This document shows, one piece after another, positions 5,084-23,135 of a stretch of DNA of 41,786 nt. Source of the stretch: a virus. Within the stretch, counting starts at the first letter, position 1; each line of letters starts with the position of its first letter. A model generated the notes under the pieces. That model had not been told where the DNA came from, made no database searches, and saw nothing but the letters and a program-made list of their open reading frames with translations. Location of the stretch: positions 1 through 41,786 of the IMG/VR virus record IMGVR_UViG_3300048065_000502; one strand, given 5' to 3'. Made by a program: the position numbers and the translations under genes.

Positions 5084-8000
5084 TGGCGGATATTTTTGAC
5101 CCGTTTGCAGAATCAGCGGACACTGCTGCCCCACAAGCTGTCTACGATCCATTTGCTTCAGATGATGTAGAACCCGCTGCTGCGTCAGCCGCAGCACCGA
5201 CTCCAGAGCCGACTTCCCCAGATCTAGTGCCGCCTAACACCACTATGTTTGATTACATAGGGGACGCGAAGGAATTCTTAGACGTTGAAGATCAAAGGGC
5301 TTTATTGGAGTCTGAGCAGCAGCGGTACAAAGATGCGCCGGGATATGAGGACCGTAATGATTTCTTCCTTGGGGATAGTTATCTTGGCAACAGAATGCCG
5401 AGGTTTTACATTGATCCATTAGGGGACGTAGTAGTAGAAAATAGCGCCCTTGTAGAGGGTGTTAGGGACGCAGCAACCAATACCGCTATCACTGTGGCGG
5501 ATTTGACTGACATGGGCAGGAGTGCGCTTGGCACAGAAGTAACGAATGAAAACAGTTACGGGCAAGCCTTAGATGACTACTTCACAGAATACGACGAAAG
5601 ACGCCCTTTACAAGGATTTGCAGGGGAAGCCGCTGGACTTATAGGAACAGGTTTTGGCGCGGGTGCTTTTTTCAGAGGGCTTGCAAAACAGGTCACTAAA
5701 AAGTTTGGCAAAAGACAAGCGTCGAAGAAGATTGCTGAAGGTCTTGCCACAGGCGTAGGTCTTGAAGTTGGTGCGGTTGCAGGGGCGGACGGCGACTCTA
5801 GTGGTATCCTCTTAGGTAAAGACCCCTTGCTTAACTTCCAAGAAGACGTTCCTCTGCTTCGGGGCATAGAGCTAGATCCCGATAGTCCTGAGTACCAAGA
5901 ACGTCTGGCTAATAGAATGAACCTTCTTATGGAAGGTGGCGCTCTAGGTCTGGCCGCAGAGGCTGGGATCAACTTAACTGTAAGTTTAGGAAAGCTGGCC
6001 CTTGTCATGTCTGCAAACACAGTCACCAGTTTGCTTGGAAAGTCGAGTGTACCTAAAGCTCAACAAGACATGGTACGAGAAATATCTGATGCTCTGTACG
6101 CTGCGGAGAACGCGGCTACTCCTAGAGACCAAGAAACCTTTTTGATAGAACTTGCAGACGCGATAAGGAACAACGAACAGGTTGTTCTTTCTACAGCAGA
6201 TGATTTCTTAGGTCCTCTTACTGCTGATCAAAGCTCTATGAATGCCTTTTTGGTCGCATGGGAAAACGGAGACATAGCTGTTGCTTTAGAAACTCTAGAA
6301 CGGGCAAAGTCGTTACAATCTGGTACAACAGGTCAGCCGCTGGGTACTTCCACGGCCCTTGCATCGCAACAAACTGTCCGGGCCGCAGACGAAGGCTTTG
6401 AGAGAGCGCAAGACATATTGGATGGACCGGAGAATATCCCAAGGGTTACTGCGGACCAACAGGCGCGTGGTCTCGCTGAAGTGGGCGCAGCGAACCAAGT
6501 CGTAGCAGACTTAGATACTGAGATTGCTGCACTGGAAGAGGCGCTTGAGATAGACCCTAACTTTGAAAAAGTCTTAGCCTCAATCCAGAATAAGACGGGC
6601 ATAGAATTAAGCGCGGATACACTGGCCAGTAACGATGCTATGCGTGAGAACTTGGTTCTTGCGTACACCAAGATGACCAATACCCGGAATGAATTATACG
6701 GGGAAGTCACTGGTGGGTATTTAGACGTTACTGATATGGTATCTAAGCTGCGGGAGATCACTCCTGATAGGCTACAGATGGCTGCGTCTACGATGCCCAG
6801 CGGACCCATGAAAACGCTTCTTAATATGGCTGAACCGCCCCCCACAACTAAAATGGTGGACGGTGCTGAAATACCTAAGACCGATGAAGAAATTCTTGCG
6901 GATGAAGCCGCGATAGTAACCGCCATCACGGACGAACTCGCGAAGGTTGGCGTGGATGACTACGGAAGTTTCTTTAAGGTCATCCGCTCAGAATTAGCGC
7001 AAGTTAAACAATCCCTATTTGAGGCGGGTCAACAAGGTGCTGTTGCAGCTAGAGGCCCAGCGCGTGACTTTGAAAAATTCGTTAATTACATCGACGATGA
7101 CTTACTGAAGCTTGCGGATGAGGACGGTCTCTCAGACGCAGTAGAGGCCGCTAAGAAGTATGATAGAGAGGAATTTCTCGTCAACTGGCGTGGAGAAGGC
7201 CCTCTAGCGCGTATAGCCAAGAGTTACGACATTAATATGCGCTCTAAGGCCCCTCTTAACGCCCAGTCCGCAGATGAAATAGTAGAAGAAGGTGGACAGG
7301 TTGGGTTAGATTTTGATGGGGCTGTGGACGAATTTTCAGCACCTCCCATTAAGTCTAGCGCTGATGAGATTACCTTTGCACAGAATGTAGATGACACTAT
7401 AGCTGAGAACTTGCCTCAGTCCCGCTACGGGGCGCAACTAATCCAAGGTCTTCGCATGTCGGGTGTAGAAGGGGCTGAAGATGCTGCTTACGATTACATT
7501 CTGTCGGATGTTCTAGGTACTCTTGGTTCTAGGCAGAGAGGTGACGCAGGGTACTCACCAGAAGACATACGGATCGCTGTGGATGCTTTGTCTAAGTACG
7601 GGTCCGTATTACGGCAAGAGTTTCCCGAAGCAGCAGACAAATTGGTTGTCTTACAAAAAGACATCTTAAATGGTAAGAGGAGCCTGGAGTCCTTAGAGGC
7701 AGACCGCGCAGTAGCCTTTGCTGCCGCCGAAGAAGTTTCCAATGAGGTGTTTAAAGGTAAATTCAACGCCTTCTTCGATGCTAATAATGCTCCCATGAAT
7801 ACGGGGCAGAAAATTTGGGATCAAGTCTTTAAGCAATTTAGGGATGGCGATACGCTCACCCCTGAAAATATAGGAAAGTTTGACAAGCTTGTCTCTGCAA
7901 TTAGAGACACCAGTGACCCTGAGTTAATTAAGGGTGTTCAGGCCGCATACTTAGACACCATGCGCCGAAAGTTTTTCACCACTACAAAAACTAGCCTTGG

Positions 8001-20272: not shown

Positions 20273-20352
20273 ACCCCTGTCTATTTACACAGTTATGGGT
20301 CTTTTCTCCCGATTGTCCACTAAGATACTGAAACTTATACATTCTACCAGAC

Positions 20353-20390
20353 CCTGAAGGTCGTAGGTTCAAATCCTACTCCCGCAACCA
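20353..20390 (+). repeat. attP: Putative attP core: 3' part of a tRNA gene
   Basis: A T arm (GTAGG-TTCAAAT-CCTAC, 20363-20379), a 3' acceptor strand TCCCGCA and a discriminator A with CCA (ending 20390) are intact, preceded by CCTGA-AGGTC, which fits an anticodon-stem 3' strand and variable loop. The 5' half of a tRNA is absent. The A72-A73-CCA end and AAGGTCGTAGGTTC best match initiator tRNA-fMet, from memory. It lies just past the 3' end of the integrase gene. This is how a phage restores a tRNA gene on integration. Confidence 0.8.
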
Positions 20391-20449
20391 AAGTACTGAT
20401 AGAAAACAATAAATTTTTATCAGGACCCCCATAAACGAGGGCCGGGGAC

Positions 20450-21619: not shown

Positions 21620-21648
21620 TTGACAGAACTGTGTGGGGTCTTTATAGT
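21620..21648 (+). promoter_or_regulatory. Strong consensus promoter divergent from int
   Basis: TTGACA (21620-21625), exactly 17 bases, then TATAGT (21643-21648). No protein gene follows on the + strand; a terminator ends at 21769. The product would be a short untranslated RNA. Confidence 0.7.
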
Positions 21649-21654
21649 ACCCCC

Positions 21655-21769
21655 TGCAAGATAGGTAACTGACCCACCCGCCTTCTTGTACACTCCCTAA
21701 AGTCGGGGTTTATACGTTTGCCCGACACCTTTGCCTCCTTCCAACATGACTGGAAGGGGGCTTTTTTTT
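21655..21769 (+). ncRNA. Candidate ~115-nt small RNA
   Basis: The span runs from the expected start site of the consensus promoter at 21620 to the T tract of a strong terminator. It contains an internal hairpin (GTCGGG 21702-21707 with CCCGAC 21721-21726) and the terminator hairpin. There is no credible ORF. It is not antisense to the integrase ORF if int starts at 21552, but would overlap the leader if int starts at 21693. Inferred from signals only. Confidence 0.5.
21733..21769 (+). terminator. Strong rho-independent terminator
   Basis: GCCTCCTTCCA pairs with TGGAAGGGGGC over eleven pairs (one G-T) around the loop ACATGAC, followed by eight T residues. It faces rightward although all neighbouring protein genes run leftward, which supports a separate + strand transcript. 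Confidence 0.88.
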
Positions 21770-21774
21770 CATTT

Positions 21775-21789
21775 TTACTTGCGCGTCAA
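21775..21789. repeat. 15-bp repeat TTACTTGCGCGTCAA, copy 1
   Basis: First of three exact copies found between 21.8 and 23.1 kb. It contains the imperfect dyad TTG-CGCGT-CAA. It lies between the small-RNA terminator and the end of the 65-residue gene. Operator or initiator role is possible. Confidence 0.6.
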
Positions 21790-22009: not shown

Positions 22010-22211
22010 GAATTTCCTCGCTTAACTTGGGTTTTTTTTCTGAAATTAGCTTTCGGGATGCGCGGAAAACTACAAAGAGCGTTAGACTCGTAAGATGAAG
22101 GTAGGAAGAATTACTTGCGCGTCAACCTTTTTAAAGACGCTGTTAGTTTAGTTTTGATACTTTGGGGTGATTCTACTGTTAAAACCCCTACTTGAACCCC
22201 TCTGATAAGCC
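22010..22211. other. Gene-free stretch with repeat copy 2
   Basis: About 200 bases without a credible ORF. It carries the second exact 15-bp repeat (22111-22125) and T/A-rich runs. No strong promoter was found by eye, although transcription of the 65-residue gene must come from here or from read-through. Confidence 0.6.
22111..22125. repeat. 15-bp repeat TTACTTGCGCGTCAA, copy 2
   Basis: Exact copy in the same orientation as copies 1 and 3, in noncoding DNA upstream of the 65-residue gene. A preceding A extends the match with copy 3 to 16 bases. Confidence 0.65.
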
Positions 22212-22239
22212 AAAAAAAACCCCGACACAAGGCCGGGGC
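22212..22239 (-). terminator. Rho-independent terminator in the early arm
   Basis: On the - strand CCCCGGC pairs with GTCGGGG (one G-T) around CTTGT and is followed by eight T residues. It lies seven bases after the stop of the 85-residue gene and is the first terminator met by leftward transcription. Confidence 0.85.
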
Positions 22240-22245
22240 TGAGTT

Positions 22246-22503
22246 TTACCAACCGAAGCTTACTGAACAGGTCTCGCACACTTCGTAATCATCAAGTGGT
22301 AGCCCCGCAGCTTCCAAAGCGTCTAAACCGTCTTGCTCGGTTTTAAACTTTGTATCGCCACCCCGCTTAAAATGCTCTTTAAGCTTGGCGTACATTGCTT
22401 TTCGCTCTTTTGCTGCGATCCGCACCCCAGTTTCATAATTACCCCCACGGTAATAGCTGGGGCTGATGGTGTAGAACGGCTTAGAGTGTCGAAGGGTAGT
22501 CAT
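22246..22503 (-). CDS. Small basic protein with C-terminal CxxC
   Basis: 85 residues. The N-terminal half is basic and aromatic (RHSKPFYTISPSYYRGG), followed by a Lys/Arg-rich helix. The C-terminus has CETC, which could bind a metal if dimeric. It starts at ATGA overlapping the stop of the preceding gene, so translation is coupled. It is closely followed by a terminator. Function unknown; early position suggests a host take-over or regulatory role. Confidence 0.55.
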   Translation of the reverse strand: MTTLRHSKPFYTISPSYYRGGNYETGVRIAAKERKAMYAKLKEHFKRGGDTKFKTEQDGLDALEAAGLPLDDYEVCETCSVSFGW

Positions 22504-22865
22504 TGCTGTTCCCCCGTAGCACTGTCAGCTTTAATCGCATCGATAGCATCATCCGCCAATGAGTCTAGATAGGTATCTAGCATGTCATTGGGGTGACTCC
22601 CCAAGATCTCTTTGCCAGCGCTAACCTTGAGATCCGTTAAAGGTTCAAGGGTATCGAAATTTGGTACTAGCGCGTCAATGTCGTTCTTAGACAGCAGCTT
22701 GGCAATTGGGAACATGCCGCCATCATCGTCAACAAGGCAGAGAATGAGGGTGTCATCTCCGTAGGCAAATTGATCTTCACATAGGATCAACGAAAACTGC
22801 TCGTTGCGCTCCAAGAGTAAAGTCTTTTCAACGGCCTTTTGGAAAAACGATTTTTGCTTAGTCAT
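22500..22865 (-). CDS. First gene of the leftward early arm, acidic protein of unknown function
   Basis: 121 residues, strongly acidic. It starts with a basic helix (TKQKSFFQKAVEKTLLLERN), then beta-type segments (FSLILCEDQF, DTLILCLVDDDGG) and an Asp/Ala-rich helical tail. AAGGATGC precedes ATG 22865; this motif recurs in front of several genes in the region. A degenerate copy of the 15-bp repeat lies inside the gene. It is the first protein made from the promoter-boxA leader and so is the best place to look for an early regulator, but no known antiterminator family is recognised. Confidence 0.6.
   Translation of the reverse strand: MTKQKSFFQKAVEKTLLLERNEQFSLILCEDQFAYGDDTLILCLVDDDGGMFPIAKLLSKNDIDALVPNFDTLEPLTDLKVSAGKEILGSHPNDMLDTYLDSLADDAIDAIKADSATGEQQ
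22664..22678. repeat. Degenerate copy of the 15-bp repeat, within a gene
   Basis: GTACTAGCGCGTCAA matches 13 of 15 bases of the repeat and has the same orientation, but lies inside the 121-residue gene. It may be chance or a genuine fourth site. Confidence 0.35.
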
Positions 22866-22948
22866 AGTAATGCATCCTTTGAAATTGGTTTAGGTTAAAG
22901 GTTGCCACCCCATCGTCATTATCGCGTCAGGGTATGACTGTTCCGAAT

Positions 22949-22960
22949 TGTTAAAGAGCA
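22949..22960 (-). promoter_or_regulatory. boxA antitermination site
   Basis: On the - strand TGCTCTTTAACA is identical over 12 of 12 bases to the E. coli rRNA-operon boxA, which binds NusB-S10 and makes RNA polymerase resist termination. It lies about 21 bases after the predicted start site and about 85 bases before the first gene of the leftward arm. Confidence 0.72.
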
Positions 22961-22987
22961 AGCGGTCCAGCTAGTGGGCGCAGGAAT

Positions 22988-22995
22988 ATTTTACC
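22988..22995 (-). promoter_or_regulatory. Extended -10 promoter of the leftward early arm
   Basis: On the - strand TG-G-TAAAAT has its hexamer at 22993-22988. No good -35 box is present at the right distance, as expected for an extended -10 promoter. The start site would be near 22981, just before boxA. Confidence 0.45.
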
Positions 22996-23120
22996 ACACG
23001 GGTTTTTGAGATTTGCTGAAAACGCCCTGTTTCAGGGGTGTTGCTCCCCGCTAGGCCGCATGGTTGCTAGGGTGAAAAAAAAGCTTGACACGGGTTGGGG
23101 TGATCAGAGCCTGGGACTAA

Positions 23121-23135
23121 TTACTTGCGCGTCAA
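23121..23135. repeat. 15-bp repeat TTACTTGCGCGTCAA, copy 3
   Basis: Exact copy about 130 bases upstream of the early-arm promoter, in noncoding DNA, same orientation as the others. It sits at the left edge of the compositionally different block. Confidence 0.65.

Follow-up and report, generated by a model that had tools for sequence, protein, structure and literature searches.

A probable mobile early-gene cassette with an rRNA-type boxA leader in a temperate marine phage

Our analysis of the window, the whole 41,786-nt stretch of IMGVR_UViG_3300048065_000502, identified a boxA, TGCTCTTTAACA, at 22949-22960 on the - strand, with no other exact copy in the window. We favor, at slightly better than even confidence, the reading that this is a functional rRNA-type boxA in the Nus-dependent leader of a mobile early-gene cassette, where it would support Rho-resistant transcription of the cargo. 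The parts of this reading differ in strength. From its sequence the unit is very probably a self-contained, horizontally exchanged early-gene cassette; recruitment of Nus factors by the leader boxA is likely; and a net positive effect against Rho is about an even call. What the sequences themselves show is the anatomy of the unit, the recurrence of its leader with other cargo in other phages, its absence from core relatives, the conservation of boxA in diverged surroundings, and an apparent independence from the terminators of the early arm.

The window phage is temperate and of the HMO-2011/CRP-3 type, as judged from its primase-DnaB-PolA-endonuclease I core and a TerL related to those of CRP phages. 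Its - strand carries the genes for integrase, primase, DnaB-like helicase, family A DNA polymerase, endonuclease, and ribonucleotide reductase, and its + strand those for terminase and portal. Between integrase and primase, at about 20347-20391, lies a 45-nt tRNA-Met 3' end, the probable attP, which is identical in CRP-235 and has related counterparts in CRP-3 and CRP-212. Among 385 genomes from the class to which the Acidocella record belongs (Alphaproteobacteria), 11 contain the 29-nt core of this site; among 369 from the class represented by a gammaproteobacterial MAG, none does. The core corresponded to a tRNA-Met gene wherever ARAGORN called one. Since the core occurs in alphaproteobacterial genomes, the host is probably alphaproteobacterial. 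In the two attB-bearing alphaproteobacterial genomes in which the rRNA boxA was recognizable, it reads TGCTCTTTGA and differs from the phage boxA by one base, which, with a host that is probably alphaproteobacterial, counts against the favored reading.

The boxA core of the window fits GYTCTTTAANA, the gammaproteobacterial consensus. Under a second-order Markov model, about 0.009 copies of the 12-mer are expected in the window; an earlier note on this DNA had put a chance match below one percent by simple count. The match is longer than that note stated: the extended boxA TGCTCTTTAACAATTCGGAA, a 20-mer at 22941-22960 (-) for which about 1e-7 chance copies are expected in the window, is identical to the boxA of the Thiomonas 16S-23S spacer. 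In a bacterial genome collection we found exact TGCTCTTTAACAATTCGGAA in six contigs. Four of these carry it in rRNA operons just before 23S: two are from Thiomonas, one is from a betaproteobacterial MAG, and the fourth, which bears the label Acidocella, has a spacer almost identical to that of Thiomonas. Of the other two contigs, one carries it directly before a CRISPR array, and one is without explanation. The exact 23-mer that includes CAG had no match among the genome contigs. In the CRISPR case (L059, position 3391, a gammaproteobacterial MAG) the window's exact 20-mer abuts the array, which fits the reported CRISPR-leader boxA. Upstream of the window's boxA, an extended -10, TGTGGTAAAAT (22988-22998, -), predicts a transcription start at about 22981, which places boxA about 21 nt past the expected start, as the note had it. 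This promoter scores under the threshold of a consensus promoter scan; its placement is supported by the recurrence of its 21-nt neighborhood, AAAAACCCGTGTGGTAAAATA, in L135 and L152.

Promoter and boxA belong to a cassette of about 1 kb, all of it on the - strand, in which a conserved block, TGTCAAGCTTTTTTTT (23075-23090), precedes the promoter and boxA, and two small ORFs with an intrinsic terminator follow. Between boxA and the first gene lie a hairpin region (22904-22938) with a conserved GACGCGA at 22922-22928 and a conserved GTGGCAAC (RTGGCAAC, 22901-22908), possibly an alternative start or part of an RNA element. The first gene, orf121 (22500-22865), is followed by the cargo gene orf85 (22246-22503) and by a strong terminator at 22212-22238 that closes the cassette. 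Two copies of a 15-mer, TTGACGCGCAAGTAA, flank the unit, and the window holds three copies on the same strand: copy A at 23121-23135 upstream of the boxA cassette, which is extra with respect to core relatives; copy B at 22111-22125, ahead of orf65, a conserved promoter-like site at which the core early arm begins; and copy C at 21775-21789, after orf65. Relatives usually have two copies of the element around the orf65 homologue, and the stretch from the extra copy to the next one is exactly the boxA unit. With its own promoter and terminator, its absence from core relatives, and a cargo that varies in the same slot, the unit has the features of a mobile cassette. The TTGACGCGCAAGTAA-type sites are candidates for a phage-specific promoter/operator or a stoperator-like site. 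A co-varying pair of such elements surrounds the first small early ORF in CRP-3 (TTGACGTGCCAGT), CRP-235 (CTGACGTGCGAGT), CRP-212, L002, and L006. On the opposite strand the block offers a TTGACA; we considered whether this could be a divergent -35, and discarded the idea because no -10 was seen by eye at the right spacing. Elsewhere in the scanned region, the best sigma70 match (TTGACA-17-TATAGT) lies on the + strand within 21620-21768 and is followed by a strong + terminator at 21733-21761. Together they may specify a small RNA of about 110 nt, which would face the beginning of the integrase gene from the opposite strand; CRP-3, CRP-235, CRP-212, L002, and L006 likewise have a hairpin on that strand upstream of int.

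The leader of this cassette is not confined to the window. A search with the block and the boxA core at the window's spacing retrieved the block-promoter-boxA arrangement from 33 other viral contigs, with about 3-4 expected by chance if 50 Gb are taken as searched. The exact block in these 33 matches is partly built into the search, and the unbiased support comes from loci retrieved by another query, orf85, where a boxA follows the block at a distance of 114-125 nt in nine of nine copies. Moreover, 24 of 26 distinct leaders (window included) fit GYTCTTTAANA at positions that the search did not fix, and 24 of 26 have a -10 hexamer at most 45 nt upstream of boxA; the two leaders that depart from the boxA consensus are AT-rich and resemble chance matches. 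When otherwise diverged leaders were aligned with the window, the islands kept were TGTCAAGCTTTTTTTT, the -10 region, boxA, GACGCGA, and TGGCAAC. The expected copy number, the recurrence in 33 viral contigs, and the fit at unselected positions led us to reject boxA as a chance match. The leader lies directly 5' of orf85 in nine contigs (L115-L120, L123, L154, and L155), and in other phages leader and orf85 form a closed unit with a terminator that adjoins different genes. In the long-type leaders and the window, the start codon lies 94-95 nt past the first base of boxA; in short-type leaders (L125, L126, L132, L137, L148, and L153), boxA stands close before the Shine-Dalgarno sequence and the cargo is different. 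Against the favored reading, two orf85 homologues, L121 and L157, had neither the block nor a consensus boxA. In the G001 record (57.8 kb, a group X relative) the boxA consensus occurs once, at the leader, and the control gave 0.

Exact identity to an rRNA spacer boxA, within a cassette that is mobile and recombining, might also suggest that a fragment of a host rRNA leader or spacer was captured together with a promoter and has been kept as a recombination or promoter module that binds no Nus factors. Among representatives of the leader types, however, the spacer before boxA is near shuffled identity and boxA is identical at 10-11 of 11 positions. This preservation of boxA while neighboring spacers were randomized makes passive carriage very improbable.

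Further placements of boxA were observed in viral contigs. In L137, a marine phage, two small ORFs led by boxA stand in tandem at about 5224-5480, the second boxA lying just past the hairpin that closes the first ORF. L074, the contig with the nearest orf240 relative, has boxA in another position, again with the same -10 words: at 953 (-), TAAAATATTCC and then TGCTCTTTAACAATT lie antisense at the end of orf240 and read antisense through it, with a CCGCG...CGCGG hairpin after them. L045 and L046, which are unrelated viral contigs, have the window's layout without homology, namely boxA and a 118-124 aa ORF that starts 34-46 nt past the first base of boxA, with recombination-type genes next and, in L046, a terminator after the ORF.

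The earlier note saw no clear boxB hairpin, which is correct for the window alone: its hairpin is imperfect and no more stable than those of shuffled sequences, and minimum-energy folding of single leaders was in general not significant. The family comparison gave a different result. Twelve distinct long-type leaders have a hairpin after boxA in which three of four outer-stem pairs change on both sides, one of these compensated pairs being changed in the window too, and an inner stem that would present a GCGA tetraloop also has one compensatory change; GCG/CGC may form the inner stem in its place. Short-type leaders are without the hairpin and leave no room for boxB, which indicates that it is not essential to the leader class. 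The layout resembles boxA-boxB, and we regard the hairpin as a lead: in long-type leaders it may add a second, boxB-like contact or shape translation.

The note had further located intrinsic terminators in the early arm at 22.2, 19.3, and 14.8 kb, all of which are real; an additional, weaker one lies at 15.74 kb. It had proposed that boxA, alone or with a phage protein, brings about processive antitermination along the entire early arm, past its intrinsic terminators, had advised a search of relatives for the same word at the same place, and had named lack of conservation there as a refutation. For the early arm this refutation applies, since core relatives have no boxA there: boxA, orf121, and orf85 are all absent between the divergent + strand genes and the integrase in those DNA-polymerase relatives (at most 69% identity) that cover the region, namely L002, L006, L035, L040, and L042, and at the same place in isolates CRP-3, CRP-212, CRP-235, and CRP-738. 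Further matches to the boxA consensus exist (CRP-235 38446, G766, G768, and G771), and total counts equal expectation; the two that were inspected (CRP-235 13889 and CRP-212 11525) lie inside annotated genes and look like chance. In L002, L006, CRP-3, CRP-212, and CRP-235, the early arm starts at a TTGACG-type element, and a 60-65 aa ORF and then a repeat of the element follow. The terminator ahead of dnaB has a counterpart at the homologous position in nearly all relatives examined, and that before the cas4-like gene is kept in close relatives; the relatives with those terminators have an early leader without boxA wherever it is covered. That relatives without boxA keep the terminators speaks against a dependence on boxA for crossing them; passage past them, or local re-initiation after them, probably works without it.

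At the orf68-dnaB junction, a conserved intrinsic terminator is followed by a promoter-like GGTTCTAATAAGTAATTACGTCTGATAT in L002, L003, and L005, and the promoter-like sequence of L006 is one base off GGTTCTAATAAGTAATTACGTCTGATAT; this combination suggests local re-initiation before the helicase gene.

Antitermination across the early arm is favored by the closeness of a genuine boxA to a promoter, by the covarying, boxB-like hairpin of related leaders, and by terminators that do exist downstream. Besides the relatives that keep the same terminators without boxA, several observations oppose it: the unit is mobile and closed by its own terminator, the core early genes restart at the conserved element at 22111-22125, which is present in relatives without boxA, and the short-type leaders have no space for boxB. 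In addition, without lambda N the Nus factors were found to act on and prevent Rho-dependent termination, suppression of intrinsic terminators requiring N (PMC5725501). No N-like protein was found when orf121 and orf85 were searched against Pfam, PHROGs, and PADLOC. We consider antitermination across the whole early arm improbable, and reject it as the main reading on the ground that core relatives without boxA share the terminators. What remains of the earlier interpretation is a true boxA, a real promoter, and the 121-aa and 85-aa genes as a unit, the boxA probably being used with host Nus factors.

As to the cargo, orf85 has 12 homologous loci in other viral contigs, at 74-85% identity, and orf121 has no relatives in viral contigs, phages, or plasmids. 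In one phage group, about 20 contigs that share genes for the terminase small subunit, phrog_1362, phrog_1617, and TerL, at least four unrelated small proteins alternate in one slot, which is bounded by the same leader on one side and by a near-identical terminator on the other; in most members this terminator reads ACCCCGCTTCGGCGGGGTTTTTT. The slot holds orf85, members of a 132-135 aa or a 104-aa family, or a 98-aa protein, and the TerL of the group is nearest to those of Pelagibacter phages HTVC027P/HTVC023P and others. None of ten cargo proteins (two from the window and eight from relatives) hit a significant Pfam, PHROGs, or PADLOC family at 0.001, and the predicted structure of orf85 (pLDDT 69.5) had no Foldseek match; the orf121 prediction (pLDDT 49.5) was left out of the structural search. 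In T7 a boxA leader precedes gene 0.3, and in other phages such leaders precede ocr-like genes and a T5-like pre-early region; by this analogy, the cargo probably comprises takeover or anti-defense proteins.

boxA binds NusB-S10. In the mechanism that we favor, host RNA polymerase would start at about 22981, and NusB-S10 would bind boxA in the nascent RNA to form a Nus-modified, Rho-resistant elongation complex. Small accessory genes would thus be transcribed efficiently at the start of infection, up to the cassette's own terminator, and the effect would be confined to the cassette. In its favor, an inserted boxA increases the transcript levels of long CRISPR arrays roughly 10-fold (PMC7862264). 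Against the anti-Rho part of this mechanism, the cargo transcript is short and translated, a setting in which Rho is a modest threat. The sign of the boxA effect is also uncertain, because boxA and Nus factors repress suhB and CKO_00699 (ParE-like), and at suhB steric closeness to the Shine-Dalgarno sequence was not enough to explain this (PMC5725501). In the same manner, boxA with NusB-S10 and other Nus factors might lower translation of the cargo, whose synthesis would then be restricted to a short burst or to times of limiting Nus factor supply. Repression is the known effect of boxA in single-gene leaders (PMC5725501), and the short-type leaders, like suhB, have boxA just before the Shine-Dalgarno sequence. 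In long-type leaders and the window, by contrast, boxA begins 94-95 nt upstream of the start codon; phages, moreover, usually need rapid expression of their early genes, and boxA at CRISPR arrays increases expression (PMC7862264). We hold Nus-mediated repression, the main rival, to be unlikely, and retain the Rho-resistant leader as the preferred reading.

Similar leaders were observed in other phages. The exact rRNA-type 20-mer (TTTGGAA form) is present in 14 viral contigs, in which a scan for rRNA markers found none; in one of them, L056, the site is a contig end beside tRNA-like sequence. With the E-value limit set permissively at 10, short extended-boxA queries matched about 1,330-1,360 of 50,697 phage records. 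Among the cases inspected, T7 carries CGCTCTTTAACAATCTGG between promoter A3 and gene 0.3, and boxA precedes ocr-like genes in Klebsiella KP32_196 and in Escherichia Ec-G9, where three such leaders follow one another. Ghunavirus Pf1-ERZ shares 19 nt with the window, Vibrio phage BD1 has three boxA leaders, and in the pre-early region of a T5-like phage boxA precedes a small gene, behind which lie A2 and A1. BLAST of the whole leader against isolate phages returned boxA-sized matches only. Our literature search found no paper on boxA before T7-type early genes; older T7 literature may exist beyond the papers searched. A short and abundant transcript with an rRNA-type boxA would bind NusB-S10, and the first-expressed leaders of T7-like phages carry boxA too, which could point to a decoy that titrates NusB-S10 and depresses host rRNA synthesis during takeover. 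The element is, however, linked to a translated gene, and in some phages three separate boxA leaders are each tied to an ORF, which looks cis-acting; we regard a decoy as highly improbable. Tentatively, and with less than even confidence, we suggest that rRNA-type boxA leaders are a general, N-independent and Nus-dependent device by which unrelated phages (T7-like, SP6/K1-like, T5-like, Vibrio, and marine temperate) express their first takeover or anti-defense genes, and that in marine phages the device has become an exchangeable package.

boxA is usually regarded as an element of rRNA operons and lambdoid nut sites. A cassette family that joins a promoter and an rRNA-type boxA to swapped small genes would extend it to ordinary phage genes. 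The leader thereby offers a searchable signature for accessory early genes, candidate anti-defense proteins, in marine phages, and, if boxA leaders are a general phage device, the exchangeable marine leader would be a marker for new anti-defense genes. The question whether Nus factors help or restrain phage takeover, that of T7 included, becomes directly testable.

In comparison with known systems, the cassette is closest in sequence to the rRNA operon boxA, with which it shares the 12-mer, the 20-mer, and a short distance past the promoter; in the window, however, cargo ORFs and a terminator follow, not rRNA (no Rfam match). With lambda nut (boxA plus boxB, and N) it has in common a phage leader, a boxA, and, in long-type leaders, a covarying hairpin about 15 nt past boxA with a possible GNRA loop. 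It differs in that no N-like gene was found in the searches with orf121 and orf85, the hairpin is missing from short-type leaders and weak in the window, and the unit ends at its own terminator. As in suhB and CKO_00699, boxA stands in the leader of a single protein-coding gene, and there it represses; the limit of about 50 nt between boxA and start codon, used there as a search criterion, is exceeded in the window, where boxA ends 83 nt away, and short-type relatives lie within it (PMC5725501). The CRISPR-leader boxA is likewise a non-rRNA boxA acting in cis, the CRISPR transcripts being long and untranslated (PMC7862264, citing Stringer et al.). Like the cassette, the early leaders of T7, Przondovirus, and Vectrevirus carry an rRNA-type boxA, which lies there after the early promoter and ahead of the first takeover gene (0.3, ocr); these are different phage families, and BLAST similarity is limited to boxA. 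Finally, the mobile regulatory cassettes of T4-type phages (PeSL) and phage morons are promoter-leader-gene-terminator units that shuffle between phages, and to this plan the marine cassettes add a boxA and the TGTCAAGCTTTTTTTT block.
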